Shown here one piece after another: positions 6,368 through 63,227 of a DNA stretch of 64,000 nt (within the stretch, counting starts at the first letter, position 1; every line of letters starts with the position of its first letter). Location of the stretch: positions 1 to 64,000 of the forward strand of contig JAADHN010000026.1 in assembly GCA_013151865.1 (NCBI GenBank), in the 5' to 3' direction. The notes under the pieces were generated by a model, which did no database searches, was not told the DNA's origin, and worked only from the letters and a program-made list of their open reading frames with translations. Origin of the DNA: Kiritimatiellota bacterium (lineage in GTDB: Bacteria > Verrucomicrobiota > Lentisphaeria > Oligosphaerales > JAADHN01). The translations under genes and the position numbers were made by a program.

Positions 6368-6537
6368 GGAAGTCGCAAGGAATGGGGATTCCGGCGGGCG
6401 TCTTGAGTCTGTCGAACGGTGAAGGCGAGAGCCGGATGCGGCGTCTTCTCCCCGCTTCCGCATCCTCGGGGGCGGCGGGTTGAGAATGGGCGTTCAGTTT
6501 GGCAGGTTCGTGGACTCGGACAACAAAGCCCTGGTCC

Positions 6538-8771: not shown

Positions 8772-8810
8772 AGCCGCGCCTCTCCCGCTTGTCCCTCCTC
8801 GGTCGCGGTT

Positions 8811-11182: not shown

Positions 11183-11307
11183 TTGCTCTCGGCCGTCGGC
11201 GCGACAGCGGCGATTATCCGGTCCGAGATTGTCTGAACCATTCCGCTGAGGACGTCGGTTCGCCGGCGCTCCAACCGATTCCGAGACGGTCAAGACTCCG
11301 GGCGCCG

Positions 11308-38571: not shown

Positions 38572-39506
38572 CGAGCGGCCGTGTCCAGCTTGCCCGCACT
38601 GCCCAGTTTTTCGTTCTTGTGCGCAATGAACTTGGCGTACTCGGCCATGAAGATCTTGCCGGGCTTGCGCAGGTCGATGCCGTCCGGATGCTCGAGGAAG
38701 AACTCGCGGTGGACACGGGTCCAGACCAGCCGACCATCGGTGTCGATATTGACTTTGGTCACGCCGAGCTTGGCGGCTTGACCAAACAAGTTCTCGTCCA
38801 CGCCCCGGGCGCCTTCGAGCTTGCCGCCGGCCCGATTGATTCGGGCCACCTCTTCCTGCGGGACCGAACTGCTGCCGTGCATCACCAGCGGGAAGCCGGG
38901 CAGGAGCTTCTGGATTTCTTCCAGCACGTCGAAGTGAATGGTCTGGCTGCCGGAGAATTTGAACGCGCCGTGGCTGGTCCCGATGGCGCACGCCAGCGAG
39001 TCGACTCCGGTGCGCTCGACGAACTCTTTGGCCTGCTGCGGGTCCGTCAGCTTGGCGTCTTCTTCCCGCACCGAAATGTGCTCCTCGACCCCGCCGAGCT
39101 GACCGAGTTCCGCCTCGACAACCAGGCCACGAGCGTGCGCGGCATCCACGACGCGCTTGGTGATGGCCACGTTCTCCTCGAACGGCTCATGGCTCGCGTC
39201 GATCATGACAGAGCTGTAGAAGCCGCTCTCGATGCAGTCGAAACAGCTCTGTTCGTCCCCGTGGTCCAGATGCACCGCGAAGATCGCGTCCGGGAAAATC
39301 TGGTCCGCGGCGCGAATGATGCTCTCGAGCATCAGCTTGTGCGTGTACGCCCGGGCCCCTTTGCTGATCTGAATGATGAACGGCGCACGGCTGTCCAGGT
39401 TTCCCTGAAACAATCCCATGCACTGTTCCATGTTGTTGATGTTGTATGCACCGATGGCAAACTTGCCGTAGGCCACGTCGAACAAGTCTTTGGTCGTTAC
39501 GATCAT
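38556..39506 (-). CDS. fba: Class II fructose-bisphosphate aldolase
   Basis: 316 residues, typical of class II zinc aldolases that split fructose 1,6-bisphosphate in glycolysis and gluconeogenesis. Signatures: VHLDHGDEQ (79-85, metal and catalytic region), VEAELGQLGGVEE, LVMHGSSSVP and VNIDTDGRL for phosphate binding. The ATG at 39506 has AAGGAC upstream; the very long open frame on this strand beyond it is antisense to the pseudokinase gene and not coding. Cytoplasmic. It is divergent from the pseudokinase gene. The related tagatose-bisphosphate aldolases cannot be ruled out by motif alone, but the IGAYNINNMEQ start fits Fba. Confidence 0.93.
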   Translation of the reverse strand: MIVTTKDLFDVAYGKFAIGAYNINNMEQCMGLFQGNLDSRAPFIIQISKGARAYTHKLMLESIIRAADQIFPDAIFAVHLDHGDEQSCFDCIESGFYSSVMIDASHEPFEENVAITKRVVDAAHARGLVVEAELGQLGGVEEHISVREEDAKLTDPQQAKEFVERTGVDSLACAIGTSHGAFKFSGSQTIHFDVLEEIQKLLPGFPLVMHGSSSVPQEEVARINRAGGKLEGARGVDENLFGQAAKLGVTKVNIDTDGRLVWTRVHREFFLEHPDGIDLRKPGKIFMAEYAKFIAHKNEKLGSAGKLDTAARAVGS

Positions 39507-39597
39507 GGGTCGCGCGTCCTTTCGTTTCGTTGCGGCAGGTCGGGTACGGCCCCTCGGTCCCCGCGGCGTCCCCGGCCAAAATGTCGCTCCGCGCCGG

Positions 39598-39626
39598 TTG
39601 CCGATCAAACCGGCAGCGAGTACTAT
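39598..39626 (+). promoter_or_regulatory. Weak promoter candidate before the pseudokinase gene
   Basis: TTGCCG, a 17-base spacer and TACTAT, about 170 bases before the pseudokinase start. It is the best-spaced pair in the gap between fba and the signalling cluster (39507-39797). It could drive the whole 39.8-50.9 kb gene string. Confidence 0.35.
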
Positions 39627-39797
39627 ATACCTGCGGACCGCGTTTTTCATCGCCTGGTTCGACGGAACTCGTTCGGACCGGCCGCGGCGTGTCTTCCGAT
39701 AGGCGGGGCGGCGGCGGGGAAACCCGGGGTCCGGTGCTCCCGCGGCATCCCCGACCGTTTCCCGTCCATGCACCGCCTTTTCAACGAGCAAGCCGCC

Positions 39798-42197
39798 ATG
39801 AGGTTTCAGTGCAGTCATTGTCTCGGGGTCTTGGCCATCGAGGACGCCGAAGCAGGTGAGCCGGTCGCCTGCGGGTACTGCGGCAGCGTGGTACTCGTTC
39901 CGGCGACACGGCTGTCGCCTCATTCGGTGGTCGGCGACTTCGTCATTCAGGCCCCGATCGGCCGGGGTGAAATGGGGACGGTTTTCCTGGCGCACCAACT
40001 CTCGCTGGACCGGCCTGTGGCCTTCAGGGCTTTGCACGACCGTTTCTGCGACGATCCCGAGTATCTTGCGGAGTTCGCGCGTACGGCGCATTCGGCCGCC
40101 CTGCTGAACCATCCCAACATTGTCCAGGTCTATGCGTCCGGAGAGGAAGACGGCGTACACTTCATGGCCGTCGAGCTGGTCCGGGGCAGAACACTCGGGC
40201 AAGTCCTGGAACACAGCGGCAGCATTGTGCCCGATCGCGTGCTCGAGATTGCCGCAGCAGTGGCGGCCGCCCTCGATTTTGCCTGGAGTAATCGCGAACT
40301 GGTGCACGGGGCAGTGCGCCCGGTGAATATCGTGCTGCACGAGCAAGGGCACGCGGGCTTGGTCGACTTCGGTTTGGCGCGCCCGGCGCTCGATTGGCTC
40401 ACCACTTCGGACGAATCCGTCCAGGGCGCACCCCAGTACATGGCGCCCGAGCAGATTATCGGCGGCCGGCCGGACCCTGCCGGGGACCTTTACGGCCTGG
40501 GGGCCGCGCTGTACCATGCCGTCACGGGTCGGCCGCCATACAGCGGCCCCACGACCCGTGTCACCGTGGAAAAACACCTCACCGAACCCTTGACGCCGCC
40601 GCGCGAAGTCGCGCCGGGTCTCCCCCCGGCCCTGGCGACCGTCATCGAGGCCCTTTTGGCGAAACGCCCCCCGCACAGGTACGCGTCCGCCGCCGAGTTG
40701 CTCGCTGACCTGCACCGGGTGCGGCAGGGCGAGGCGCCGGTGAAGGAGGTGCATCCGGATGCCCAGGCCCCGCTCGCTCTTCCGGGTAAGTCTGCGGCCG
40801 CCGCCCGCGCTTCGGGGACCCGGCGCCGCCTGCGACGGACCTCGGCCGCCGAGCCTACCGCATCCGATGCCGGGGTCGCCGAGACAGGGGCCCCCCCGCC
40901 CCCGGGAGTCGAGCACTTGGAGGCCGATGAGGCGCCCGAGGTCTCGGCCGCTTCGAAGCGGACTGGGCTCCGGCTGGCTGTCGTGTTGCTGTTCGTGCTG
41001 CTGGCGGCCGGCATCGGTTTCGGGTTGTGGTTCCTGCGTCGGTCTCCCGAGCGGCCCGGGGCCACTGCCGCCGGGCGTGCGCGGTCGTCCCGGGCGCGTG
41101 CTCAGGCCGCCAAGGCCCAAGGCCCGGCCGCGGAGATCCGGTCGCTTCTCGCCCGTCACGCCGCCCCAAAAGAAGTCCTGGCCCGCCTGGCGGCTTTCGA
41201 GCGCGATTATCCCGACAGCGGCGAGACGGCCGCCGCTCTGCGGCGGGAAGCCGCCGACGTCATCGAGCAGGAGGTCCGCGAACAAAGGGCGCGACGCCAC
41301 GAAGCCGAACTGGCGGAGTGGCAAAAGCGCGCCACGCTGCTCCGGGAACAGGCTCGCAAAGCGGCCGAGGAGCGGGTCCGCCGGGAACAGGCCGCCGCGG
41401 AAGAACGTCGGCGCCGCCGGGAAGAAGAGCGCCGGGCCGCGCTGCGCGAGAAGAAAGCCCGGGAATTGGCCAAAGCGCGGGAGAACCTGCGTTGGAAGGC
41501 CGTGGAACTTTGCCGAAAGCACCGCTTTGCCGACGCCCGGGCCCTTTTTGTCCCGCTGGTCGAGGCGGACGACCCCGAGACTCGGGCCTGGGCAAAAGCC
41601 AAGCAAACGTGTATCGACCTCGCCGAAAAGGCGTTCAAGCTCGTGGCCGGGTCCGGCAATAAACTGAAGGGTGAGCGACTGGCCGTACCCAAGCGCACCG
41701 GCAAAGGCCGCATCGATTACATCAGTACCGACGATATTTCAATTGTTTTTGCCCAAAAGGTCTTTAATGACAAAGGCGAGGAACTTGGCGAACGCATTGT
41801 CGACCGGGTCCATCTTCCGCTCACCGACGTCCCGGAAGCCGTGTTTTGGGAGCTGTGCCGGACGGCGTGGGAAAAAGACCACGACGATCCCGCCGATCTC
41901 CTTGAAATGTTCGGGGCTTACCTTCTCAGTCGAGGTCGGTACCTGGCCGACGCACGCCGGAACCTGATCCAGAGCGGCAAACCCGAGGCGACCGCTCCGC
42001 TGATCGAGGAGTTGGACGTCATGGCCGGGGAACTGCGCCGGCAGGAATGGAACGCGCACTGGAAACGCGTGGTCCTGCTGCGTCGGAATGGTAATATGAA
42101 AGGGGTCCGCCAGTATCTGGACTGGCTGAAGCTCCATTATCCCAAAGAGTACGAGGAACACGCCCGGGACATCCGGGAAACCCTTCAGGACCAGTGA
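39798..42197 (+). CDS. Zinc-ribbon pseudokinase with membrane segment and coiled coil
   Basis: 799 residues. A CxxC...CxxC zinc ribbon (Cys5, 8, 25, 28) precedes a Hanks-type kinase fold (about 43-308). The Gly-rich loop IGRGEMGTVF and DFG (190) are present. However, the ATP-anchoring Lys is Arg (VAFRAL, 77), the alphaC Glu is replaced by Thr (about 97), and the catalytic HRD is HGA (170-172). It is therefore probably a pseudokinase. A transmembrane segment spans about 391-413, then an Arg/Glu/Ala coiled coil (about 480-590) and an unrecognised C-terminal domain. The soluble kinase half should be cytoplasmic. The metallophosphoesterase start overlaps its stop (TGATG). The start at 39798 places the zinc ribbon first; an ATG at 39778 is out of frame. 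Confidence 0.85.
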   Translation: MRFQCSHCLGVLAIEDAEAGEPVACGYCGSVVLVPATRLSPHSVVGDFVIQAPIGRGEMGTVFLAHQLSLDRPVAFRALHDRFCDDPEYLAEFARTAHSAALLNHPNIVQVYASGEEDGVHFMAVELVRGRTLGQVLEHSGSIVPDRVLEIAAAVAAALDFAWSNRELVHGAVRPVNIVLHEQGHAGLVDFGLARPALDWLTTSDESVQGAPQYMAPEQIIGGRPDPAGDLYGLGAALYHAVTGRPPYSGPTTRVTVEKHLTEPLTPPREVAPGLPPALATVIEALLAKRPPHRYASAAELLADLHRVRQGEAPVKEVHPDAQAPLALPGKSAAAARASGTRRRLRRTSAAEPTASDAGVAETGAPPPPGVEHLEADEAPEVSAASKRTGLRLAVVLLFVLLAAGIGFGLWFLRRSPERPGATAAGRARSSRARAQAAKAQGPAAEIRSLLARHAAPKEVLARLAAFERDYPDSGETAAALRREAADVIEQEVREQRARRHEAELAEWQKRATLLREQARKAAEERVRREQAAAEERRRRREEERRAALREKKARELAKARENLRWKAVELCRKHRFADARALFVPLVEADDPETRAWAKAKQTCIDLAEKAFKLVAGSGNKLKGERLAVPKRTGKGRIDYISTDDISIVFAQKVFNDKGEELGERIVDRVHLPLTDVPEAVFWELCRTAWEKDHDDPADLLEMFGAYLLSRGRYLADARRNLIQSGKPEATAPLIEELDVMAGELRRQEWNAHWKRVVLLRRNGNMKGVRQYLDWLKLHYPKEYEEHARDIRETLQDQ

Positions 42198-44702: not shown

Positions 44703-46856
44703 ATGAAGAAAAGCAAGGTCTCATCCAACGGCCCGGAATACTCGCTCCGGGTCCACGGCCCGGGGGGCGAGGCCGGATATCCCTTGGACCGCTTCCCCTG
44801 CTGCGTGGGACGCAACCCCGACTGCGACGTGGTCATCGCGGATCCGTCCGTCTCCGGCCGCCACGCCACCTTCGAGCGGGACGCCGATGGAAACTTGGTG
44901 CTCGTGGACAATCGGAGCACCAACGGCACTTATGTGGACGGCTCTCCCATCTCGCGCCTCAAACTCCGTCCGCCGGTGCGGATCATCATGGGCAAGGTTT
45001 CGCTCGAAGTCCTCGAGAAGGGCGGCAAACCTCTCGCCTCTCACTCTCCGCGGCCGGGCCCGCTCCCCCTGCCGCCCGGCGTTGGGGCGGGACCTGGGCT
45101 CCCGGCGACCCGGTCCGACGGGGACTCGGGGGCCGCGCCGGGTGGCGGGGAGTGTTTTTACCGTCGCGCCGGGAAAGAACACGGTCCGTTCACTCGTGCG
45201 CAATTGCGGGAAATGGCGGCCAAGGGCCTTCTGCGTCGGACAGACCTTGTCTGGGTGGACGGTGCGGACGCCTGGTTGCGGGCGGACCTGGTTGAAGGGG
45301 TCTTCTCCGGAGTCCCTGCCGGCGAATCGCCCGCACCGGTCGTCGAGCAACCGGACAATCCCGCGGCCCAGACCTCCGGTTATTTCGAGGACTTGCTCGA
45401 GTTCCCGGTTCGCAAGGCCCGGGGCGAGATCACTTGTCCCCATTGCTGGCACACGTTCGACGTCGAGGAGTTTCTCTTCATCGCGCGGCACCAAGCCCTC
45501 GTTGGAGATCCCGTTTTGGGCCCGGACGCCCAGCAGCGTTTCTTGCCCTCCAAGTTTACGCCCGAGGGCAATGCCGTGGACAGCATGGGAATGAGTTGTC
45601 CGGACATGGCCTGCCCCAGGTGCCACCTGCGCATCCCGAAATCCGCCAGCGAGATGCCGCCGCTTTTTCTTTCGATCGTCGGCGCTCCGGCCAGCGGCAA
45701 ATCTTACTTCCTCACTGGGATGATCTGGAGACTCCGCAATGAGCTGGCCCAGAACTTTGCCATCGCCTTCACCGATACCGACGCCATCAACAACCAGATA
45801 CTGAACGACTTCGAGGAAACCCTCTTCCTCAATTCCGACCAGGACCAGCTCGTCACCCTCAGGAAGACCGAACTCCAGGGTGAGTTGTACAACCAAGTGT
45901 TGCTGGACGGCATGATCATCAACCTGCCCAGACCGTTCATGTTCAGCATCACCCCGGCCGAGCACCATCCCCAGTATGAGCAGGTCAAGGACAAGATGTC
46001 CCGGACGCTCGTGCTTTATGACAACGCCGGCGAACACTTCGAGCCCGGAATGGATTCCGTCGACAACCCCACCACTCGACATTTGCTGCACTCGGACATC
46101 ATTTTCTTCCTCTTCGACCCCACCAAGGACGTGCGTTTCCGCCAGCTCTGTCACGCCACCGATCCCCAGCTCGAGAAAGGAGCCCGCGTTCAGCGGCAGG
46201 AAATCCTGCTGACCGAAATGATCAACCGGATCAAGAAATACTCAGGCATGAAAGCGGATGCCAAGACGGCCAAGACCCTGATCATCGTGGTCCCCAAGTA
46301 CGACGTCTGGGCCGACCTGCTCGATTATCCGACCAGTCCCCAGCCGTGGAAATGGGAGGCCCGTTACCGGACCTGCGCGCTCGACGTCGAGGAAATCAAG
46401 AACGTTTCTTTTGCCGTCCGGGGGCTTCTCGAGCGGGTTTGTCCCGAGGTCGTGGCCACCGCCGAGTCCTTTGCCGGGGACGTACTGTATTTGCCCAATA
46501 GCGCGTTGGGTCGCAGTCCGGAAATCCAGCCGGACTCGGGACTGCTGGCGATTCGGCCGCGGGACATCCGGCCATTCTGGATTTCCATGCCCATGCTTTA
46601 TTTCTTTCACGAACGCGGCTTCATTCCGAGCCTGCCGCGCCGCAGTCTTCCCGACCGGGAAGTGGTTCCGGTCGAGTACAAGGTTTCCGGCGACGTGGTA
46701 TTCGTTTTCTTTCCGGATCGGGAAAAGCCGCTTCAAATCCCGGTCTGTTACATGGGGTGTCGGCTGCGAGATCCGCAGTCGGGAAAATGGTTCGAACTTC
46801 CCGCCCGGCGCAGACGCCGGAAAGGGACCTACCGGCGCGGCAGCTCGGGCGGGTGA
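44703..46856 (+). CDS. FHA / GYF-like / zinc-ribbon / P-loop GTPase protein
   Basis: 717 residues. FHA domain (about 13-103) with VGRN, SGRH and STNGTYVDG, which binds phosphothreonine. GYF_2-like domain (about 151-201: CFYRRAGKEHGPFTRAQL, then VWVDGADAWLRA). Zinc ribbon with Cys245, 248, 299, 304, 307. P-loop NTPase domain (about 320-600): Walker A GAPASGKS (327-334), DxxG-type YDNAGE (440-443), and PKYD (531-534) in the position of the base-recognising [NT]KxD. This order resembles the double-GTPase proteins described next to GAP1 proteins in predicted NTP-dependent conflict systems; that assignment is from memory of motifs. No transmembrane segment. The GAP1-like gene follows 41 bp later. 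Confidence 0.8.
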   Translation: MKKSKVSSNGPEYSLRVHGPGGEAGYPLDRFPCCVGRNPDCDVVIADPSVSGRHATFERDADGNLVLVDNRSTNGTYVDGSPISRLKLRPPVRIIMGKVSLEVLEKGGKPLASHSPRPGPLPLPPGVGAGPGLPATRSDGDSGAAPGGGECFYRRAGKEHGPFTRAQLREMAAKGLLRRTDLVWVDGADAWLRADLVEGVFSGVPAGESPAPVVEQPDNPAAQTSGYFEDLLEFPVRKARGEITCPHCWHTFDVEEFLFIARHQALVGDPVLGPDAQQRFLPSKFTPEGNAVDSMGMSCPDMACPRCHLRIPKSASEMPPLFLSIVGAPASGKSYFLTGMIWRLRNELAQNFAIAFTDTDAINNQILNDFEETLFLNSDQDQLVTLRKTELQGELYNQVLLDGMIINLPRPFMFSITPAEHHPQYEQVKDKMSRTLVLYDNAGEHFEPGMDSVDNPTTRHLLHSDIIFFLFDPTKDVRFRQLCHATDPQLEKGARVQRQEILLTEMINRIKKYSGMKADAKTAKTLIIVVPKYDVWADLLDYPTSPQPWKWEARYRTCALDVEEIKNVSFAVRGLLERVCPEVVATAESFAGDVLYLPNSALGRSPEIQPDSGLLAIRPRDIRPFWISMPMLYFFHERGFIPSLPRRSLPDREVVPVEYKVSGDVVFVFFPDREKPLQIPVCYMGCRLRDPQSGKWFELPARRRRRKGTYRRGSSGG

Positions 46857-46897
46857 GTCCCCCCGTCCGACGGTCCCTCCAATGATCGGAATAATGA

Positions 46898-47830
46898 ATG
46901 GCGAGTGAACTCATCTACACCTCCGCACCCCGCGGCGTGCGCCCCGGGACCAGCGGGTTTTGCACCGTGGCCTACACGCGTGGCATGTCGGCGTCCACCG
47001 TTCGCCTGCTCGAGTCCCTCAGCGCCTATAAACACCTCTACGCCGCCCACGATCCGCGGGCGGCCCGGAACCCGGTCGTTTACAGCCACTATCGGTACAC
47101 CATTTCCGGGCGCAGTCTTCATATCCTTTCCAGGATCAGCGCTGCTGCCGCCGATCACACCAACCGCAGCAATACCATCGCCCATCACCTCGTGGTTTCC
47201 CCCACGGAACGGCCCGACGGCGGTCCTGCCTGGCTCGCCCTGCAACCGGGCGTATTCGTCGAGAGCTGGGATCGGGAACCCGAGCGCCTCGAGGGCCCGA
47301 AACCCTTGCCCCGAGGGGACGCGGGATCTACCGTGGCCCGGACATGGCACGCGGCGGCCGGGGACGCCGGCTGGGCCGGCGTCCTCGCGTATGCCTTTCT
47401 GCGACGTCCTTCCGATCCCGCCTTTCTCCTCTTCGAGCCGGGGCAACCCATGCTCGAACTCATCGCCGAGGCCCTGGCCCTGCTGCCGCCGCGTCGGCGC
47501 TGGGACGTGACCTTCAGCACCTATTTCACGCTCCTGCCGGCCGGGACCACCTGCGCGTGGCGGTGCTGTGTTCCCGGTTCCGAGGCCGCTCGCGAGGTCC
47601 GTCGTTTCCCGCGCTCGCTCGTGATCGACCTGACCCAGCCCCCGGGGGCGCCGCCGGACAATCCCCTTGTCCAGGAGGCACGCCAGGGGGCCGCCGCCGC
47701 GCAAGTCCGCCGGCCCGACGGTCGTCGTCCCCCGCCTCCACCAGCGAGTACGCGCTTCAAGCTCCTCGAATCCAATCGGCGCCGAACAATCCGACTCAAA
47801 CCCGGCAAACCCGGAGGACGGCAACCATGA
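46898..47830 (+). CDS. GTPase-associated protein of the GAP1 (N2 + M) type
   Basis: 310 residues. The first ~135 residues (LIYTSAPRGVRPGTSGFCTVAYTRGM, then NPVVYSHYRYTISGRSLHIL and RSNTIAHHLVV) match my recollection of the GAP1-N2 domain. Residues about 145-245, with LIAEALALLPPRRRWDVTFSTYF and CAWRCC, match the following middle domain. Such proteins are found next to P-loop GTPases in multi-gene systems predicted to be in biological conflict or signalling. Biochemical function is not known. The C-terminal 60 residues are Pro/Arg-rich and probably disordered. The stop overlaps the start of the next gene by 4 bp (ATGA), so they are translationally coupled. A database profile search would settle the family. 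Confidence 0.78.
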   Translation: MASELIYTSAPRGVRPGTSGFCTVAYTRGMSASTVRLLESLSAYKHLYAAHDPRAARNPVVYSHYRYTISGRSLHILSRISAAAADHTNRSNTIAHHLVVSPTERPDGGPAWLALQPGVFVESWDREPERLEGPKPLPRGDAGSTVARTWHAAAGDAGWAGVLAYAFLRRPSDPAFLLFEPGQPMLELIAEALALLPPRRRWDVTFSTYFTLLPAGTTCAWRCCVPGSEAAREVRRFPRSLVIDLTQPPGAPPDNPLVQEARQGAAAAQVRRPDGRRPPPPPASTRFKLLESNRRRTIRLKPGKPGGRQP

Positions 47831-50800
47831 CGGCCGAAGAACGCCTCGTCGGTCAAATCCGCGATTTCCTCCGACGGTACAACCAAGAGAAAGACCCGGC
47901 TACCGAGGAACTCGCCGATCAGTACGCCGACCTGTGCCGCCAGATCAATGAGCGGCTGGTGAAATGCAACGACTTCCTCGAAAAAGGCATGCGCTCCGAG
48001 GCCGTGCAGGAGGCCCAGGTGCCGCCGCTCTTGATCGAACTGGTCGACACCGTCACTTTCCCCGAGGTCACCAAGTGGCGGAATATCTGCGCCGATCTCG
48101 AGATGACCGTCTTCCCGCCGTTGCGCATGGAAATCGTCGACCGCCTTCGGCAGGAATGCTCGACAGAAGAATTCCTCTCACCGTTGCTCCACGAGTATCG
48201 ACGGCTCGTGCACCAAGGCGCGCTGGACGAACGCATCCGTGTGCTGCGCAGGATCCGCGAACTCGACCCCGAAAACCCGGTTTGGGAAGAAAACCTGGCC
48301 CCGCTCGAAAAAGACCAACAGGAAAAACTCCTTCCCGTCGCTCGACGGGCTTTGACCGAAAACGACATTCCCCGGCTCCAAAAACTCTATGACGACCTCA
48401 CCGACCCCCGGCGTGTCGTTGAGCCGCCCGAACGTCTGGTCGGCAAGATCGGGGCCGTGCTCCGCAGGCATCGGGAACAACAGGCCCGGGAAGAAGGTGC
48501 ACGACTCGCCCGCGACTTGGAAGCCGCCCTGGCCGAGAAAGACCACGAGCAAATCCGGCAGCTCATCCGGCGCTGGGACCGGCTTTCCAAGTTCGAGGAC
48601 TTTCACCCCAGCGAGAGCGTGCGGAGCGTTGCGGCGCGCGCCCAACGCTGGTACAGCGAAGAGCGAGCCCGGCGGCAGGCGGACGCGGAGTTCGCAGCCG
48701 CCCTCGAAGAGCTGCGCGTTCAGCTTGACCTGCCGTTGCCCGACCCGGTCCATCTGCAGACCTGCCTCCTGCGTGTCCAGAGTTTCGGCAAACCGTTGCC
48801 GCCCGGTCTCGAGGATTCTGTCCAGGACGCCCGCGAGCGGGTTCGGGTCGCGGCCGCTCGCCGCCGGTTCCGCCGGACGGCGACCGTCCTCGTTTTCCTC
48901 GTGATTCTGCTGGCCGCCGGCGCCGTCGCGGGGGCGGTTCTGCTACGAAACATCCAGCGCCGAAACGCGATCCACACCGTCCAGGCGTTCCTGGACGTCG
49001 GTGACGAAGCCGGGTTGCGGCAGTACCTCGATGACTTGCGGCGCGAGCGCCCCCACATCTTCCGGGTGCCGGCCGTACAGCAGGCCCTGAAGCAGTCCCG
49101 GGCCGAAGAAGAAGCGCGCCGGACCAAAGCCGCCGAGTTCGAGCAGGTCATGGGGCAATTGGATAAGGTGCGCGGCAATAAGTACGACTTGCCCGGACCC
49201 CGGCTCCGCCAGTTGCTCGACCGCGCGGAAAAGCTCGCCGTGACGCCCCAGGCCCAGGCCAGGTTGAAAGGATGGCGGCTGGCGTTCGAGCTGTGGAACA
49301 CCAAGCGTCGGCAAGAACTCGACGACCGGTTTTCGGCCTTGCTCCGTTCCCTTGGAGATGCCGTGGTGCGAGCCCCTGCCTTGAAAGCCGGACCCCTCGA
49401 AATCGAGGGCAAAGCCCTCGAACAAGCCCGGAAGGAATTGCAGCAGGCCCTCGATTTGGCGCCGTCCGCCGCCGAAGACCGCCGGGCCGAACTCGCGCCG
49501 CTCGAAGAGGCCGTGAAAAAATGGGACGCCGATTACACGGCCAGGCTCGCCCGCCGTCGCGAGCAAGAGGCCCGGCGTCTGCGCACCCTGCGGGTCATGG
49601 ACCGCGCTCTCCCCGACATCGACGCCTACCGGGACTTGCTCCAGGGCTTTCTGGACGAGTTCCCCGGCAGTCCCGAGCACGCGGCCCTCCGGAAGGCCCT
49701 CGCCGAACTCCCCATGTACCAGGACGCCGTCGCGCTTCAGGCCCTGCAAGTCACCGAACTGCCGATGAGCGCTGCCATCCTCAAGCAAGCCCGGGACCTG
49801 CTCGCCAAACTCCAGGGCGGTCCGGCCCCCAGCATTTGGGCCGGCGACCTGCAACGGGCCGTGACCATCACCGAGGCACAGTCCGCCCTGCGCAAAGCCC
49901 TGCCGAGCCTGAGCAAGCTGGATTTCTTTTCGCTCCATGTTTTCTACATCCGTCCGAAAGGCGCCGCTGAATGGGAGCCGGTCTATTACCCCGACAACAT
50001 TATCAGCCAGGATCGTAAGCTGTCCGACGGCGCCACGATCACTTTGTACTGGGGCAAGGCGTTCCGCGGCGATCCGGAAGAGAAGGAGCCGATCCTTGAA
50101 CACGTCAAGTTCAGCACGTCCGAATACGACGTCAAAATCCGTCGCCGCCGGGAAAGCAACCTGATTCCCGCTGCGAAGTTCGCACGCGCGGTTTTGGCCG
50201 AGGGCGCCCGAGTCCCCCGCACGGACGACTTCCTGCTGGATGCCATGCAGCGTTTGCTGCGTTCCGAAGAGATCCAGCCAGTTCCAAAGTTGCTGCTTCT
50301 CAGGGCGTTGGGAAACATGTTGGCTGATGCCCTCGGCGCCGCCGAGCCCGAGATCGCCGGTCTCGGCGACCTCCTTGCCGACGTGCGGATCGAAGTGAGC
50401 TGGCTGAACCGGAAAAACCCGAACGTGCCGCTTCTGGAGCAAAGGGTCCGTGATCGGCTCGGGGCCTTGCCAGATTTTGCCGCGCTGAAAGCCGACGTGC
50501 ACCGCAATCAAGAACTGCTCCGTCTCGCGCTCGACCGCCGGGTCTCCTGTGTGGGGTTGGTCAAGCGCGATCCCGACACCCCGACTCGGCTCATTCCGAG
50601 CCTGCGCCTGCCCCATTTACGGACTGCATGGATCATTACCGTCGATCCCACCGGCCGCCGCCGGCAGTTCTTGCGGGCGCTCGAGGCCGATGCCGGCGGC
50701 GGATTGACCTTCACCCGAGACGTGCGGAACAAGATCTTCCTGGGACAACTCCTCTTTGCCCCGGGCGACGGCTTGCCCGCCTCCACCGTGCTGCGCAATG

Positions 50801-50877
50801 CACTCCCCGAGGCCCCTCACTCCCCGCGTTGGCCCCAGGCGTGGCCGGTCAACCAACGGGCACTGCCGAAAAAGTAA
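47827..50877 (+). CDS. Large membrane-anchored helical/coiled-coil protein of the GTPase module
   Basis: 1016 residues that I do not recognise. The N-terminal ~345 residues are helical and highly charged (Arg/Glu/Leu heptad-like), with no signal peptide. One transmembrane segment lies at about 351-373 (VLVFLVILLAAGAVAGAVLL). After it come further long charged helices (about 390-620). A more globular C-terminal part of about 350 residues contains aromatic beta-like phrases (FFSLHVFYIRP, ATITLYWGKAF, TAWIITVDPTGRRRQF). The layout cytoplasmic coil / membrane / outer coil / globular end fits a scaffold or signal-transmitting partner. The start at 47827 overlaps the GAP1-like gene by 4 bp. Same-operon location is the only clue to function. 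Confidence 0.75.
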   Translation: MTAEERLVGQIRDFLRRYNQEKDPATEELADQYADLCRQINERLVKCNDFLEKGMRSEAVQEAQVPPLLIELVDTVTFPEVTKWRNICADLEMTVFPPLRMEIVDRLRQECSTEEFLSPLLHEYRRLVHQGALDERIRVLRRIRELDPENPVWEENLAPLEKDQQEKLLPVARRALTENDIPRLQKLYDDLTDPRRVVEPPERLVGKIGAVLRRHREQQAREEGARLARDLEAALAEKDHEQIRQLIRRWDRLSKFEDFHPSESVRSVAARAQRWYSEERARRQADAEFAAALEELRVQLDLPLPDPVHLQTCLLRVQSFGKPLPPGLEDSVQDARERVRVAAARRRFRRTATVLVFLVILLAAGAVAGAVLLRNIQRRNAIHTVQAFLDVGDEAGLRQYLDDLRRERPHIFRVPAVQQALKQSRAEEEARRTKAAEFEQVMGQLDKVRGNKYDLPGPRLRQLLDRAEKLAVTPQAQARLKGWRLAFELWNTKRRQELDDRFSALLRSLGDAVVRAPALKAGPLEIEGKALEQARKELQQALDLAPSAAEDRRAELAPLEEAVKKWDADYTARLARRREQEARRLRTLRVMDRALPDIDAYRDLLQGFLDEFPGSPEHAALRKALAELPMYQDAVALQALQVTELPMSAAILKQARDLLAKLQGGPAPSIWAGDLQRAVTITEAQSALRKALPSLSKLDFFSLHVFYIRPKGAAEWEPVYYPDNIISQDRKLSDGATITLYWGKAFRGDPEEKEPILEHVKFSTSEYDVKIRRRRESNLIPAAKFARAVLAEGARVPRTDDFLLDAMQRLLRSEEIQPVPKLLLLRALGNMLADALGAAEPEIAGLGDLLADVRIEVSWLNRKNPNVPLLEQRVRDRLGALPDFAALKADVHRNQELLRLALDRRVSCVGLVKRDPDTPTRLIPSLRLPHLRTAWIITVDPTGRRRQFLRALEADAGGGLTFTRDVRNKIFLGQLLFAPGDGLPASTVLRNALPEAPHSPRWPQAWPVNQRALPKK

Positions 50878-56134: not shown

Positions 56135-56747
56135 TTCCGACCTCCTTGATTCCCGATCAACCGCCGGGGGGCCACGTCACCGACAAGATACACGGTGTTT
56201 TTCGGACGCGCGCCGGGACAGTCCGACTTTGTTTTCCCGTGGTGCACCGATGGCCCGCCGGAATCAACAAGGTGCGGTTCGCGTGCTGCGCACCCGGAGG
56301 GTGAAGCTCATCCGCATTGTCGCTCTTCCGGCGCAAGCGCCGGGAATCGAGTCCGGTCGCAGCATCGTCCGCAACCGTTTTCCGTTCAATGTGGATCGAC
56401 ACAATATCGTCGGCTTCATGGGAGATCGTTCGGGATAACTTGGTGCGGAGGCGAAATCGCTGCCTCTGCAGAACAGGCCGGACGATTCTGAGGCGGTCGG
56501 TATAATAATTCCCACGCGCCCCTTGTCATTTCCGTCCGGCGCCGCTACATTCTCAATGCGTTGGCCCCGTTGGTTCAGGGGCGTGGGTGGTTATTCCGCG
56601 GGATTGGAATACATGGCCGCCGGTCCGGAGAGCGGCCGCGGGCGGTGAGAATTCTGAACAGGGCATAGCCCGTTCAAGGGGGTGTCCACGTTGCTTTCCG
56701 CCGGCGTGTTCGCCTGCCGGGGCGAGTGGACATACGGGAACAGCAGG
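56135..56747. other. Divergent gap with promoter-like box and leader hairpin
   Basis: About 610 bp between the beta-helix protein and the large TPR gene. The only structure I see is the TATAAT plus hairpin at 56501-56588. The rest has no supported gene. Confidence 0.5.
56501..56588 (+). promoter_or_regulatory. TATAAT box followed by a long 5' hairpin
   Basis: A perfect TATAAT (56501-56506) lacks a good -35 at the right distance. About five bases after it, arms CCCACGCGCCCCT (56511-56523) and AGGGGCGTGGG (56577-56587) can pair over about 11 bp with a 2-base bulge, around a 53-base middle. If transcribed, the message of the TPR gene or a short RNA would begin with this stem. Confidence 0.4.
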
Positions 56748-59700
56748 ATGTTTTTACGGCCGCATTTTTCTTCGGTCCGCTCCTTCCATCGGTCCGGCCG
56801 GCGGGCTCGAGCCGGCGCGCGTCCACCTCGGCTTTTCTTCCGCTATCTCTTTCCGGCAGGCTGTCTTCTCGCCGGTCTTTCACTGCCGTTGCGGGCCCTG
56901 GACGAGTATCGGTACGACTATCGGCTTTCCAGGGCCCTTCAGCGGGTCCGGATGTACGATTTCGCGCAACGACATCTCGAGGCCATGCTGCGGAGATATC
57001 CAGACAAACGCGATGCAATCCTGCTCGAGCAGGCGCGCACCTTTTTTCTCATGGGCAAAGCGACTCAAGGCGAGAAATACCTGGGCCGGCTCAAGTCCTC
57101 CAGTCCCGTTTACGGTCGGTCCAGACTCTTGCTGGGGCAGATGGCCTATCGCCGCGGGGACTATGCGGCCGCGGCCGCCGCTTATGCCGGTTACTTCAAA
57201 CGGCACACCAAACCGCCGGGCAACGGCCTTCAAGACCGGGAAGAATTCCGACGTGCCGTCCACGAGTACGCCGCGGTACTCAGAAAGAAAGGCCAAGGCG
57301 ACAAGGCTGCGGAGGTGCTCGGGTACCTCGCCAACGTCGGCGAGGGTATGGGGACCCGGCAGTTGACGGTCCTGAAAGGACAGGCCATACTCGCCGCCGA
57401 GGACGAAAAGGTTCGAAAGGGCGGCGCGATCGACCGGGCGGCTGTCGAGCGGGCGCGGCGACAACTCGAAGCCCTGCAATGGCAGGGGGTCGACGCGGCG
57501 ACGGCCGCCGCGTTGGTGGAAGTCGCTCACGCCTATGTGTTGCTCGGACAGTATGACAAGGCCATCACTGCGCTGTCCGGCGGATCGGAGATTTTCGGCG
57601 AGGTGGAAAGCGCTCTCCGCCGCCGTCGCAAACTGGCGGCTTCTCCGGTCGCCGGAGCACATTACTATTACGGACGGGCGCTCAAGGGGAAGGCGTTCAA
57701 AGCGTTCAAGGCGGGGAAGCGCGATGAGGCCAAGAAGTACTTGATTTCCGCTCTCAAACATTTCTACCGGATAGCGAAGGAGTACGAGGGTTCCACTTAC
57801 TCCACCGAAGGCCTGGCAGAGTTTGGGAAATGTCGAAATCTCCTCCAGAAGCAGTTCGGGGTGAAAGTGAAGCTCAAAGCCGGTTCGGCCACCGCCGAGG
57901 CCGCCGTGAGAAAAAAGCAGGCGGACGCCTTTTATATGTCCAAGCGCTTTTCCGACGCCTTGCCGCTTTATCTGGAGATCGTGCGCACCGGGCCTACGGT
58001 GCGCGGTTTTACCGAGTCGGCTGCCCGGTTGGCGGCATGCTATGGTCGTTTGGACCGTTTTCTCGAGGCCGAAGCGGTGGCCGACTACCTCGCCGACGTG
58101 TTTCCGAAATCCGAGTTCAGCGCCCGCGCTCTGCTCCAATTGGGGGCTCTCCTGTACAAAAAGGCCCGCGCAGAAAAAAATCCGCGCCGGCAAGAGGCGT
58201 TGAATGCCGATGCCATGCGGGTGTGGGCTCGCTTCGTGGAAATCGCACCGACCGATCCCAAGGCCCCGGAGATCGCGTTTGCGATTGCCGAAAACGCGTA
58301 CGGTCGGGCGGCGCGGGTCGCCGCGAGGACCGTCAAGATGAAATCCGGCCCGGAAAAGGAGAAACTCAAGGCCCGGGCCCGGGAGCTGTATGCCCAGGCC
58401 ATCCCGGCTTACCGGCGGGTCATCGACACCTTTGCTTCATCCGCCCAGGGGGTGCGGGCTCTGTATAAATTGGGCTGGATCTATTACACGCTCGAGCGCA
58501 AAAAAGAAGCCGCACCTCTGTTTGCCCGGTATGCCGATTCCGAATCGGACCCGGCCCATACGGTGGACCGACTTGAAGCGCAGTTCCGCTGTGCGGAATG
58601 CCTCATGTTTAGCGAGCAGGCGGAAAAAGCCGTCCCGCGGCTCGAAAAACTCCTGGCATGGACCGCCCCCGGCAACGACCTGGGAATCGACCCCGGGCAG
58701 GCCAAAGTGAAAGATGTGCGCGAACGTGCCGCAAGTTATCTGGGTTGGGCTTGGGACTTGGCTGCCGAGGCGTTTCGGGGGCGTTTGGACAAACTGACCG
58801 CCAAATTGCAGGACTTACGCGAGGAAAAAGGCGTCAAAGTCGCTGCCGTCGAAAAAGCGCTTGGCCGCCGAAAAAGTGCGGAGGCGGAAATGGCTGCGGC
58901 GCGCGTCGCGTATGCGGAGATCGAAAAAGCGTATTTCGGTACCGGACCCGGCGCCGCCGAATTGGCCGCGGCTGCGGCGAAAGCGCAGGGAAAAGATCCC
59001 GCGAAACTGACGGCCGAAGAACGCGAGGTGGCTCAAAGGGACGCCGCCGCCTTGGCAAAGCGTCTCGCGGCCGGCATGGCCTCTCGGGACCGGGACCGGC
59101 TCCTGGGGGAAAAGATTCAACTCGAGAAAGAGCGGGAGGAGGTCAAGCGAGAGTTGGCCGCGGCCGTAGAGGCTGAGGCCGCGGGGGCGGGGACCGTCGC
59201 CGCTGACATCGCTCGAAAACGAACAGAGTATTTTCGCGCCAGACTCGCCGCCCTCGCGAGTGCCTTGCGTAAGAATGCCATGGAGAATAAGTGCCTCCAA
59301 GCGCCGCCGGAACGGCGGCCTGCCCTGCAAGCCGAAGCCGTCAAACGTACCCGGGAGGCCCTTGCCGCGTGGAAGGGGGCATTAGAGAAGCACCTTGACT
59401 ACCTGGGCGTCCTCGCGCGGAATGCCGAAACCGCTCGCAAGGAAGCGGAAGCCGCCATCGAACGCATCGATGCCGAAATCGTCCGAATAGAAAAGGAACT
59501 CCGGCCGCTCAGGGAAGACTTCGAGAGACGCAAGAAATTGGCGCAACGGCAGTTTGAGAGTTTCATCAAGGCCTACCCAACATCGACGTTTGTCCCCGAC
59601 AACATGGCCAGGCTCGGCACCATCTTCGTCGAGTTGGGCCAGTATGACCGTGCCGCGGAGGTCTTGGGTGACTTGGCGGCGCGGTTCCCGAAGTCCGAAG

Positions 59701-60512
59701 CCGTGCAGCGGGCATTCTTCACTTTGGGACGGTCCGAGTGTGAGCTTGGCCAATTCAAGCGCGCGGCCAAAACGTTCGACCGTGTGCTGCGCGACGCCGC
59801 GAACCAACCGCTGGCCAATCTCCTCTACATTTCCGGAAAAATGCTCGAAGCCGATCAGCCTTCGCAAGCCCTGATTGCCGGTCTGGAAATCGTCCGCCGG
59901 ACCGCCGAGAAAGTTGAATCGGACCGGGAATTCTCACCGGCTGTGCGGGAAAATGCACTCTTCCGGGTGGGCCGGGCGTATTTTGCCCTCGGGAAGTACA
60001 AGAATGCCCTCGAGTTTTTCGACAAACTCCTGGCGGAACGACCCAAAACCGCCTATTTCTTCCAGGTCAAGCTCCTGTCGGGGATCGCCCGAGCCCGTAT
60101 CGAGCCCGCGGATACCGCCGGGGCCCTTCAGGATTTCGGCGAGGTCCTGAGGTACGCAGGAGACAGGTCCGATTTGGTCAACCAAGCACTGTGCGAATCC
60201 GGGGCGGTCTATCAGAAGCTGGGGACCGAGAAAGACCTCAAACTCGCCTTGGCCCGCTATCAGCAAATCGCCCTGCTTGCCGATCCCCGAGTCAAAGAGA
60301 ACCGACCGTGGATCGAGGCGGCCCTTTTTCGGAGTGCGCAATGTTTCGATCGTCTCGGCCGGACCGCGGATGTGCTGGAAATGGCAGGACGATACCGTAA
60401 GGAATTCCCCGCCGGTGCGCACCTTCAGGCGATCAAGGACCTGGCTGATCGCGCCCGAACCAAGGCTGGAACCGGCGCCGCCGCAAAAGCCGCTTCTTCG
60501 ACCGGGGGGTGA
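56748..60512 (+). CDS. Giant secreted TPR protein of the Tol-like operon
   Basis: 1254 residues from the ATG at 56748; a GTG 22 codons earlier (56682) is also open and the true start is uncertain. A basic N-region and hydrophobic stretch (LFFRYLFPAGCLLAGLSLPLRA) act as signal peptide or anchor. The remainder is TPR repeats (for example EAMLRRYPDKRDAILLEQAR, LPLYLEIVRTG, NALEFFDKLLAERPKTAYF), interrupted at about 670-930 by a long Glu/Lys/Ala-rich coiled coil. The C-terminal half again has tandem TPR hairpins (AAEVLGDLAARFPKSEAVQRAFF). TPRs bind proteins. The next TPR gene follows 29 bp later, then TolQ/TolR genes, so it is probably the periplasmic scaffold of that energised complex. Confidence 0.85.
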   Translation: MFLRPHFSSVRSFHRSGRRARAGARPPRLFFRYLFPAGCLLAGLSLPLRALDEYRYDYRLSRALQRVRMYDFAQRHLEAMLRRYPDKRDAILLEQARTFFLMGKATQGEKYLGRLKSSSPVYGRSRLLLGQMAYRRGDYAAAAAAYAGYFKRHTKPPGNGLQDREEFRRAVHEYAAVLRKKGQGDKAAEVLGYLANVGEGMGTRQLTVLKGQAILAAEDEKVRKGGAIDRAAVERARRQLEALQWQGVDAATAAALVEVAHAYVLLGQYDKAITALSGGSEIFGEVESALRRRRKLAASPVAGAHYYYGRALKGKAFKAFKAGKRDEAKKYLISALKHFYRIAKEYEGSTYSTEGLAEFGKCRNLLQKQFGVKVKLKAGSATAEAAVRKKQADAFYMSKRFSDALPLYLEIVRTGPTVRGFTESAARLAACYGRLDRFLEAEAVADYLADVFPKSEFSARALLQLGALLYKKARAEKNPRRQEALNADAMRVWARFVEIAPTDPKAPEIAFAIAENAYGRAARVAARTVKMKSGPEKEKLKARARELYAQAIPAYRRVIDTFASSAQGVRALYKLGWIYYTLERKKEAAPLFARYADSESDPAHTVDRLEAQFRCAECLMFSEQAEKAVPRLEKLLAWTAPGNDLGIDPGQAKVKDVRERAASYLGWAWDLAAEAFRGRLDKLTAKLQDLREEKGVKVAAVEKALGRRKSAEAEMAAARVAYAEIEKAYFGTGPGAAELAAAAAKAQGKDPAKLTAEEREVAQRDAAALAKRLAAGMASRDRDRLLGEKIQLEKEREEVKRELAAAVEAEAAGAGTVAADIARKRTEYFRARLAALASALRKNAMENKCLQAPPERRPALQAEAVKRTREALAAWKGALEKHLDYLGVLARNAETARKEAEAAIERIDAEIVRIEKELRPLREDFERRKKLAQRQFESFIKAYPTSTFVPDNMARLGTIFVELGQYDRAAEVLGDLAARFPKSEAVQRAFFTLGRSECELGQFKRAAKTFDRVLRDAANQPLANLLYISGKMLEADQPSQALIAGLEIVRRTAEKVESDREFSPAVRENALFRVGRAYFALGKYKNALEFFDKLLAERPKTAYFFQVKLLSGIARARIEPADTAGALQDFGEVLRYAGDRSDLVNQALCESGAVYQKLGTEKDLKLALARYQQIALLADPRVKENRPWIEAALFRSAQCFDRLGRTADVLEMAGRYRKEFPAGAHLQAIKDLADRARTKAGTGAAAKAASSTGG

Positions 60513-60541
60513 GCCCCGCGTGAAGCAGGAGGATCGTCAAC

Positions 60542-61297
60542 ATGCAGTGGAAACGGCAATGGGCGCCGTACTGTCTCGCCGTCATCATGGGCCTTGCTGC
60601 GCTTCGCCTGCAGGCCGTGCCGAGTGGATGCTGGGTCATCGACCGCGCCGGACGCCGCACCGTCGGCGCAGTCCTGACGGCAGAACCCAACGGCACTCTT
60701 CACCTGCAGCTCAAGCGCGGCGGTCCTACCCAGACGTTCAAACCCGGCACCTATCGCTATGCATACATTCCCAAGCCCGTGGCGGTCGCCCAATTGGAGC
60801 AACTGGCTGCTGCCGGCAAAGACGCCGCCGTCGTCCAGAAGGCCCCGGCACTTTTCAAGCAGTTCAAGTTCCTGGGCTGGGGGGACCATATCGCCTGGCT
60901 CCACGGCAGTGCGCTGTTTCGTCAGGGCAAGGCGGCGGAGGCCCTCAAGGTATTTGACCTGGGCAAGGCCTACACTGTTCTGCACGGCGTCGAACTGCTC
61001 GAGGGGCGGGTCGAGGCCCTGATCGCTCTCGGCCGCGACGACGACGCCCGACAAGAACTTAAAACACTGGCGAAATCCGACGACCGCGCCGTGGCGGCCT
61101 TTGTCTTCAACGCACGCGGCAAACTCTTGGCGCGTCAGGGCAAGAAAAAGGATGCGGCCCTCGAGTTCCTGAAAACCCTGCTGCTTTTCAAACCCGGGGA
61201 GGCCACCGGCGCTCGCAAAGAGGCCCGTAAACAGGTCGTTGCTTTGCTCAAGGAATTAAAAGATCCACGGTATAAGGACTTTGAAAAGTTCAAGTAA
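60542..61297 (+). CDS. Small secreted TPR protein
   Basis: 251 residues. A signal peptide (hydrophobic about 8-24, RLQA-VP) precedes a short beta-rich part containing WVIDRAGRRTVGAVLTAEP (about 30-75) and then helical TPR-like hairpins (AALFRQGKAAEALKVFDLGKAYTV, RVEALIALGRDDDARQELKTL, GKLLARQGKKKDAALEFLKTLLLF). An AGGAGGATC site supports the start. It lies 29 bp after the giant TPR gene and 174 bp before the TolQ-like gene. A periplasmic accessory role in the Tol-like complex is inferred from position and composition. Confidence 0.82.
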   Translation: MQWKRQWAPYCLAVIMGLAALRLQAVPSGCWVIDRAGRRTVGAVLTAEPNGTLHLQLKRGGPTQTFKPGTYRYAYIPKPVAVAQLEQLAAAGKDAAVVQKAPALFKQFKFLGWGDHIAWLHGSALFRQGKAAEALKVFDLGKAYTVLHGVELLEGRVEALIALGRDDDARQELKTLAKSDDRAVAAFVFNARGKLLARQGKKKDAALEFLKTLLLFKPGEATGARKEARKQVVALLKELKDPRYKDFEKFK

Positions 61298-61471
61298 AGC
61301 TTCGCTTCGACTCGGCGTCGGCCCGGCAAGGCCTGCCAGCGGTTGTTGCGGGCGGACTTCCCCCGGTCGAGGGTCGGAAACTCGAGTCCGGAAGACAGAG
61401 CGGCGCCTCCGGTGCATAAAACCGCGTGTTGTGCTCCCGGGATCGCCGCAGAAAAGAGCAGGAGAGAAAAA

Positions 61472-62281
61472 ATGAGGCTCGGACGCAAAACTCGAAAATG
61501 CTGTGCCGTCGGCCTGCTGGCCGGAACCATAATTGCTGCGGGATTGAATGCCCGGGCTGAGGAAAAGGGCGCGGCCGAGGCGCCCAAACCCCCTGCCGCA
61601 GAAACCAAGGCGGTCGCCGAAACAGCCTCCGCCGGTCCCTCCTTCATGGATGTGGTCTTTCGGGGCGGCATCGTCAATACCATTATCTGGTTGATGATCT
61701 TCGGCACGTCCGCCGCAACGGCCGCGTTCATCATCGACGCCATGGTGTCCATCAAGCGCAGCAAGCTTCTTCCAGACGACGTCATCGAGGGCGTCCGGCA
61801 ATCCCTCGATCAAGGCGAACTCGATGCCGCCATCGAAACCTGTGAAGCCAACCCCGGCCCGCTGTCGAATATTCTCATGGGCGGGTTCAGCAACATTACC
61901 GAAGGCTACGAGGTGATCCAGGAAGCGGTGGCCTCCACCGCCGATATGGAAAGCGAGCGCCTCATGCAACGGGTCAATTTCTTGAACCTTTGCGGCCAAA
62001 TCGCCCCCATGCTCGGACTGATGGGGACCGTGACCGGGATGGTGCGTGCTTTTGCCAGTCTCGGCGGTGCGGCCGGCGCGGCGCGTGCCAAGCTCCTGGC
62101 CATGTCCATCTCAACCGCACTGTGGACGACCGCCGTCGGACTGCTGATCGCCGTACCCGCACTACTCGCCTACACACTCGTACGAAACTACGCCACCCGC
62201 CTCGTCCTGGAAACCGAAGCCACGGTGCTCGACCTGATCAAGGTGCTCCGCAATGCAGAAGTCGAAGAAGATCTGGAATAA
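61472..62281 (+). CDS. MotA/TolQ/ExbB proton-channel protein with N-terminal periplasmic extension
   Basis: 269 residues. An N-terminal signal-like segment (about 11-28, ARAEE) and an Ala/Pro/Glu linker (30-55) are followed by the TolQ/ExbB core: GGIVNTIIWLMIFGTSAATAAFIID (TM1), a cytoplasmic region and the two long C-terminal helices with MLGLMGTVTGMVRAFASLGG and SISTALWTTAVGLLIAVPALLAYTLV. With TolR/ExbD it uses the proton gradient to energise an outer-envelope process. Extensions of this sort before TM1 are known in PVC bacteria and Bacteroidota. AGGAGAG precedes the start. It is followed by two TolR genes. Confidence 0.92.
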   Translation: MRLGRKTRKCCAVGLLAGTIIAAGLNARAEEKGAAEAPKPPAAETKAVAETASAGPSFMDVVFRGGIVNTIIWLMIFGTSAATAAFIIDAMVSIKRSKLLPDDVIEGVRQSLDQGELDAAIETCEANPGPLSNILMGGFSNITEGYEVIQEAVASTADMESERLMQRVNFLNLCGQIAPMLGLMGTVTGMVRAFASLGGAAGAARAKLLAMSISTALWTTAVGLLIAVPALLAYTLVRNYATRLVLETEATVLDLIKVLRNAEVEEDLE

Positions 62282-62317
62282 ACCGACGCCGCCGGCGGCG
62301 AAAACAGGATAGTCGCT

Positions 62318-62746
62318 ATGAGACGCCGTCCACAAGAAGAACTCGAAACCCCCGTCGCTTCACTGATCGACGTGGTGTTCCTGCTGATAATCTTCTTCGT
62401 GGTCACCGCCACCATCGACCGCGACGTGGTGGACGACACGATTCACCTCGCTCAAGCGCGCTTCAGTCCGGCCGTGGACAAGAAAGACCCCCGCACAATC
62501 ACCATCAACGTCCGCAGCAACGGACGGGTGAATATCGCGTTGCAGCCACTGACCCTGAACCAGTTGCAGCAGATCCTCACGGCAACCGTGGCCGAAAGCG
62601 GCAACCAAGTGCCCATATTGGTGCGCGCGGACCGGAACACCATTTATCACGAGATCGACAAGGTGATGGAGGTCATTGGCAAAGCGGGCCTCTATCGGGT
62701 CCGCCTGGCCGCCGTGGCCACGGAGAAGAAATCGGCCTCACCGTAG
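62318..62746 (+). CDS. ExbD/TolR biopolymer transport protein, first copy
   Basis: 142 residues, the typical length. The single transmembrane helix near the N-terminus (ASLIDVVFLLIIFFVVTA, about 14-31) has the conserved proton-carrying Asp18. The periplasmic domain follows with TITINVRSNGRVNIALQPL and VPILVRADRNTIYHEIDKVMEVIGKAGLYRVRLA. The TolR/ExbD dimer sits inside the TolQ/ExbB pentamer. The gene starts 36 bp after TolQ. A second, distinct copy follows 70 bp later, so the complex may hold a heterodimer. Confidence 0.93.
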   Translation: MRRRPQEELETPVASLIDVVFLLIIFFVVTATIDRDVVDDTIHLAQARFSPAVDKKDPRTITINVRSNGRVNIALQPLTLNQLQQILTATVAESGNQVPILVRADRNTIYHEIDKVMEVIGKAGLYRVRLAAVATEKKSASP

Positions 62747-62816
62747 ACGAGCGGTCCAGGGAGGCGTCGGGACCTGTCGGCGGTCCGCACACCGGACCGG
62801 TTCGGAGTGATCGTCC

Positions 62817-63227
62817 ATGAAGAAAAGTCGGAAACGCAAGATCGGCGCGACTGTTCTGAGCGTGCCCATGTCGTCCATGATCGACGTGGTCTTCCTTTTG
62901 TTGATTTACTTCATCGTAACCCAGAAAGACGAGATTTCCGAGGCCCACCTGGCAGTCAACCTTCCTGCGCCGGACCAGGCGCAGCAGAGTGAGACCAAGC
63001 CCAACCTGCTCGAAATCGAGATCCAGCCAGGCCAAGTCTTCGTTCAGGGGGCGCCTCGCTCCCTGGAAATGGTCAGGAAGACCCTGACCTACCTGTCGGG
63101 GCTCGATCCGGATCAAACCGTGATCGTGAAGATCAGCCAACTCGCCCACGTCGACGAAGTCGTGCAAGTCCTGGACCTCTGCCGCGGAGTCGGCCTGAAC
63201 AACCTCAGCATCATGGCCCTCAAATAG
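62817..63227 (+). CDS. ExbD/TolR biopolymer transport protein, second copy
   Basis: 136 residues. The N-terminal part is basic, then the transmembrane helix MSSMIDVVFLLLIYFIVTQ with the conserved Asp23. The periplasmic domain (LLEIEIQPGQVFVQGAPRSLEMVRK, QTVIVKISQLAHVDEVVQVLDLCRG) differs clearly from the first copy. Two non-identical ExbD genes with one ExbB gene are a recurrent arrangement in planctomycetes and relatives. It lies 70 bp after the first copy and 83 bp before the TonB-like gene. Confidence 0.93.
   Translation: MKKSRKRKIGATVLSVPMSSMIDVVFLLLIYFIVTQKDEISEAHLAVNLPAPDQAQQSETKPNLLEIEIQPGQVFVQGAPRSLEMVRKTLTYLSGLDPDQTVIVKISQLAHVDEVVQVLDLCRGVGLNNLSIMALK

Follow-up and report, generated by a model that had tools for sequence, protein, structure and literature searches.

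The closest described relatives of the locus reported here are the GAP1-N2 GTPase systems defined by Kaur et al. 2020, for which a role in biological conflict was predicted. According to the available text, FNIII sensors and GAP1-C domains are typical of these systems, which also include membrane-bound components and vWA and GYF-TM proteins (PMC7159879). Their assignment to immunity was derived from genomic context alone, and our literature search on GAP1-N2 systems turned up that 2020 prediction but no experiments on the family. DO-GTPases are also found in some psp envelope-stress operons, with a predicted role in membrane stress (PMC11237479). In Myxococcus, MglA acts on type IV pili via SgmX, a TPR protein (PMC7519303), and the Agl/Glt gliding machine, which is under MglA, includes the FHA protein GltG together with one TolQ-type and two TolR-type proteins, AglRQS (PMC3169522, PMC12288465).

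The window analyzed here is a stretch of 64,000 nt (positions 1 to 64,000 of contig JAADHN010000026.1) from a Kiritimatiellota bacterium genome (GCA_013151865.1, hereafter G000; 6.2 Mb, 176 contigs, 97% complete). It contains three consecutive genes on the plus strand: a GTPase of 717 aa (44703-46856), a short GAP1 protein of 310 aa (46898-47830), and a membrane protein of 1016 aa with one TM helix (47827-50877), for which we coined the name MCC in this analysis. The first two genes are separated by 41 bp, and the last two share a 4-bp ATGA overlap, exactly as an earlier note on this DNA had described. The conserved neighborhood that the note anticipated was also found: the order GTPase-GAP1-MCC was kept in approximately 30 other loci (tblastn and HMM maps), so the arrangement is not due to chance. 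The nearest named locus was on the Victivallales MAG contig LVAZ01000299 (76% identity in the best GTPase segment). The trio is a DO-GTPase/GAP1-N2 system with a new partner protein. Two operon types were distinguished. Type A, to which the trios of the window and of other Victivallales belong, consists of a GTPase with an FHA domain, a GAP1 protein of approximately 300 residues, and MCC, whereas type B (other Lentisphaeria and Verrucomicrobia) consists of a GTPase usually lacking the FHA domain, a GAP1 protein of 640-1060 residues, and MCC. Both types were present in one genome in two cases (loci L054 and L056 of genome G018; L026 and L051 of G022).

The window GTPase comprises an FHA domain (residues ~34-96; Pfam FHA, 1.7e-17), a GYF_2 domain (residues ~152-198; Pfam GYF_2, 3e-11), a zinc ribbon (C245/C248 and C304/C307; weak Pfam match only, 0.3), and a P-loop GTPase domain with Walker A GAPASGKS, G3 DNAGE (440-444), and KxD (532-534). 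The last domain matched Pfam DO-GTPase2 (3.6e-06) with a marginal score (27.3 bits, cut-off 27), which was taken as real because all 18 aligned relatives matched the family, and the DO-GTPase call of the earlier note was thereby upheld. The P-loop, DNAGE, KxD, and the four zinc-ribbon Cys were all invariant in the alignment of 18 sequences, giving the protein the conserved Walker B Glu and zinc ribbon of a TRAFAC DO-GTPase. The FHA domain was detected by Pfam in 12 of the 18 aligned relatives and in every type A GTPase whose N-terminus is complete, with the key Arg and Ser invariant; it was also found in the GTPase of one type B locus (L087). The window FHA scored weakly against the GltG model (1.3e-06), far below the model cut-off, and other FHA proteins would score likewise. 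A second small FHA-domain protein is encoded 3 kb upstream of the GTPase in locus L033 (1671-2219). The GTPase tree placed type A on one side of a branch with low support (67/64), which suggests that type A GTPases may be monophyletic.

The GAP1 call of the earlier note proved correct for both domains: GAP1-N2 spans residues 1-131 (PF20013, 6.3e-27) and GAP1-M residues 152-246 (PF20014, 1.6e-15). No Pfam match to GAP1-C was found in the window protein, the sequence of which stops 64 residues past GAP1-M in a low-complexity tail, and no C-domain match was found in the long GAP1 proteins of deeper relatives. A sequence search of the PDB with the GTPase and GAP1 found no relative, and no Pfam or NCBIfam match to the MglA-type small GTPase or MglB GAP families was found in the trio.

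MCC begins with an all-helical N-terminal domain (residues ~1-201; 47827-48429 on the plus strand, defined by alignment A2 of 25 sequences and used in the phylum profile search), followed by more helices to residue ~345, a TM helix at ~350-374 that was seen in both the alignment and the AlphaFold model, a helical region at 380-700, and small beta domains at ~704-770 and ~907-980. AlphaFold scores were pLDDT 86.3 and pTM 0.49 for the whole protein, and pLDDT 91.8 and pTM 0.83 for the C-terminal part alone. The earlier note had called it a membrane coiled-coil protein. The single hydrophobic helix stood, but in place of the coiled coil a more fitting description is that of a protein with two helical halves and, toward the C-terminus, a pair of small beta domains. 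Pfam gave no match for MCC, in which the note had seen no recognized domain, and no family membership was found in PADLOC or the PDB. The sequence search of the PDB returned coiled-coil noise, and Foldseek searches of the PDB with the whole protein and the C-terminal part returned generic helical or poor matches and no homologue. No FNIII/Ig fold was found in the C-terminal beta domains, for which Foldseek gave no PDB fold at E ≤ 0.001. To call the module an uncommon or undescribed variant was fair, as the membrane partner is not described in the available text of Kaur 2020 and has no Pfam family.

Of the 60 relatives, 42 had an MCC homologue, which in most cases covered the full length at 27-34% identity. 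The first ~200 residues were the most conserved and the sole part well kept between types A and B; L107, L120, L140, R141, W153, E161, and L191 were invariant in the 25 sequences of alignment A2. Because of this conservation across both types, the first 200 residues are likely to be the docking site for the GTPase switch. In a survey of 241 Verrucomicrobiota genomes, 32 carried the MCC N-terminal domain, 36 carried GAP1-N2, and 28 carried both (Fisher test, P = 3e-25, a value that overstates the case, as the genomes are related and not independent). The coordinates are free of that problem: for 26 of these 28 genomes, MCC and GAP1-N2 lie on the same strand and no more than 4.2 kb apart, and in the remaining two they are on separate contigs of draft genomes. 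MCC is a near-constant third gene of the module. A search of 151 Chloroflexota genomes with the MCC N-terminal domain profile gave no match, a result that says little, as it had no positive control.

The family placement of the window proteins in GAP1-N2, GAP1-M, and DO-GTPase2 brings with it the conflict role predicted by Kaur 2020. In such a system, the GTPase and GAP1 would set a threshold, and MCC would serve as the membrane effector or scaffold by which an infected cell is killed or walled off. The vWA and GYF-RDD genes of type B loci, which resemble the components listed in that work, and a weak ZorA match of the type B ExbB protein (PADLOC, 3.2e-06) agree with this role. We nevertheless regard it as rather unlikely, and the conflict role implied by the earlier note was left unsupported. 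The window trio has no effector or toxin domain and no PADLOC match, GAP1 had no tblastn match in a phage collection or a plasmid collection, and no FNIII sensor was found in the trio or in the nearby genes scanned with Pfam (no FN3 match). Unlike a hypervariable mobile locus, type A is widespread, with a slowly evolving GTPase; its trio and downstream genes, among which no effector domain was found, are syntenic across families f2, f8, f9, and f10. The modules of relatives are instead tied to pilus/secretion-platform genes or to an ExbB-type channel.

The first of these partner sets characterizes type A. PilM/N-like genes were found after MCC in 20 of the 24 type A loci with enough downstream sequence, the exceptions being the window, L024, L027, and L033. 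The module-linked PilM/N-like protein has approximately 610 residues (PilM_2, PF11104; 7.5e-11 and 1.9e-15) and, where the contig extends far enough, is usually joined by two proteins with one TM helix each, the first PilO/GspM-like and the other PilP/GspC-like. These PilO- and PilP-like calls are weak by Pfam and are based on position, the single TM helix, and profile similarity to the secretin-operon genes, and that of PilP additionally on an HR-like C-terminus. A pseudopilin with a [12 protein letters not shown] motif was directly next in at least three type A loci. In L030 (8335-10184), the PilM/N-like gene is split across two overlapping frames of a draft contig (frameshift or assembly error).

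A search for PilM/N across the order gave a match in all 48 genomes, many of them with two good copies. The second copy sits in a Secretin-PilMN-PilO-PilP-GspE operon, which was confirmed in two loci (Pfam Secretin, 5.1e-34 and 4.8e-31; T2SSE, 1.6e-130 and 1.7e-130) and identified by profile in nearly all other regions examined. No secretin or assembly ATPase was found beside the module-linked PilMNOP-like copies, the complete set being a separate operon. In the PilM/N tree (41 sequences), label changes numbered 4 for MODULE and 2 for T2SS, compared with approximately 14 in shuffles, with some deep forks open; the module-linked copies thus group together much more strongly than shuffled labels do. 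The module-linked PilMNOP-like genes duplicate part of the secretin-PilMNOP-ATPase operon and form a set distinct from it. This duplicate need not function as a pilus, since it is accompanied by neither a secretin nor an ATPase.

The second partner set was found in most type B loci. It consists of a protein of the MotA/ExbB family (PF01618) and of two short proteins, each with one TM helix, which occupy the ExbD position but had no match to Pfam ExbD. Among the type B loci there are also genes for GYF-RDD and vWA proteins, examples being the GYF-RDD membrane protein of L051 (10473-11366) and the vWA protein of L049 (540-1238), both resembling components that Kaur 2020 lists for GAP1-N2 systems. 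Weak PADLOC matches of the ExbB protein to ZorA2 (3.2e-06) and of an ExbD-position protein to ZorB (0.03) raise the alternative that type B may be a motor defence resembling Zorya, of which the window trio would be a motorless relict. Such weak matches fit any MotA/ExbB protein, ZorC, ZorD, and ZorE were not seen, and no motor gene adjoins the window trio; we hold this alternative to be highly improbable.

In the window, the gene adjoining the trio downstream encodes a SurA-like PPIase, and no pilus genes are next to the trio. Conserved neighbors were sought among the flanking genes. The SurA-like PPIase and a sigma-54 activator downstream were discarded, as neither is kept in relative loci (tblastn). 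Upstream lies the gene for a 1192-aa Ser/Thr protein kinase (38619-42197), after which come genes for a calcineurin-like phosphoesterase and for an FGGY kinase; this group is not kept next to the trio in relatives, and the Ser/Thr kinase was ruled out as a conserved FHA partner, with no tblastn match in any relative locus. PilMNOP genes near the window trio were likewise ruled out, the complete copy being on another contig in a secretin-ATPase operon. This secretin-PilMN-PilO-PilP-GspE operon (locus L083, contig C113 of G000, 4663-12306) is the only complete secretin-PilMNOP-ATPase operon of the window genome, and a similar operon is found across the order. Farther along the window (56682-63227), a large TPR protein, a short gene, a MotA/ExbB protein (61343-62281), and two ~140-aa genes form what looks like an ordinary TPR/ExbB-ExbD energy-transfer operon, approximately 6-12 kb from the trio.

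The bare trio, without either partner set, was found in the window and in lineages f1, f3, and f5, and the pilus/ExbB link may therefore be a later add-on. These bare trios would also suit a general envelope-integrity or cell-division signaling module, responding for example to wall or membrane stress, for which the linkage to pilus or ExbB genes would be incidental co-regulation. The large, presumably periplasmic part of MCC is compatible with such a module, as is the membrane-stress role predicted for DO-GTPases of psp operons (PMC11237479). However, linkage to one or the other trans-envelope set recurs over many families, and the platform genes are a distinct duplicate, which exceeds the expectation for incidental neighbors; we judge this explanation distinctly unlikely.

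The best explanation, to which we give somewhat less than an even chance, is that the trio may act as a GTPase switch which, through MCC, governs a machine spanning the envelope, by analogy with MglA in Myxococcus. The DO-GTPase would cycle between states, GAP1, in its short N2-M form, would partner and perhaps regulate it, and the FHA domain would read a Ser/Thr-phosphorylation signal that determines where or when the switch is on. The N-terminal domain of MCC would bind the switch in the cytosol, and MCC would pass the signal over the inner membrane via its one helix to the large helical and beta part, which is presumably periplasmic. The output would concern a trans-envelope complex, either its assembly or its activity. 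For most relatives, this complex would be the platform encoded by the dedicated PilM/N-PilO-PilP duplicate, which is of the type IV pilus/type II secretion kind; for the deeper branch, it would be a channel of the MotA/ExbB type, usually with two ExbD-position proteins. The window genome has no linked duplicate; its trio would work in trans, with the secretin-PilMNOP-ATPase operon as the target, or the output may differ. We infer the GTPase-GAP1 interaction, the direction of control, and the biological output of the module from these comparisons. More tentatively, it is possible that the GAP1-N2/DO-GTPase modules of Verrucomicrobiota serve less as immune devices than as MglA-like switches, in which the FHA-GTPase would license, via MCC as a new family of membrane transducers, interchangeable machines that span the envelope (the pilus/secretion platform duplicate in some cases, a proton-driven motor of the ExbB type in others).

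What is new here is the near-constant third component, MCC, and the two recurrent partner sets, which point to control of trans-envelope machinery. The available text of Kaur 2020 makes no mention of PilM, pilus, ExbB, MotA, or TolQ, and MCC is likewise absent from it, although an earlier listing in the supplement is possible (PMC7159879). Through the partners of MCC, the role of DO-GTPase/GAP1 pairs becomes a directly testable question.

Compared with the GAP1-N2 systems in the available text of Kaur 2020, the window shares a DO-GTPase2 (DxxGE, zinc ribbon) upstream of GAP1 N2 and M domains, and a membrane-linked partner (PMC7159879). It differs in having no GAP1-C and no FNIII protein, an FHA domain fused to the GTPase, and the new third protein MCC; type A is conserved, in contrast to the hypervariable mobile neighborhoods with effectors described there. 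With respect to Zorya, a ZorAB motor with ZorC/D or ZorE was not found: the window trio had no PADLOC match, and type B had weak ZorA/ZorB matches only. In most relatives, the genes that follow MCC duplicate the inner-membrane platform of type II secretion/type IV pilus systems (GspL-M-C or PilM-N-O-P; PilM_2, 7.5e-11 to 1.9e-15), but the secretin and ATPase are missing from the linked copy, and no such copy is linked to the trio of the window.

MglB, the GAP of MglA, has another fold. The likeness to MglA-MglB-SgmX is one of working principle only, in that a GTPase, a regulator, and a helical effector would act on a PilM-containing machine (PMC7519303); no sequence relation was shown, and SgmX is a TPR protein, whereas MCC is a membrane protein in which no repeats were called. 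The Agl/Glt machine differs in that its domains are spread over other proteins, the linked genes of type B are not Pfam ExbD, and no Glt outer-membrane genes were seen. Its likeness to the module lies in the FHA domain of GltG, the TolQ and two TolR proteins, and the GTPase, which parallel the FHA-GTPase and the type B ExbB gene with its two ExbD-position genes. GltJ also has zinc-ribbon and GYF domains.
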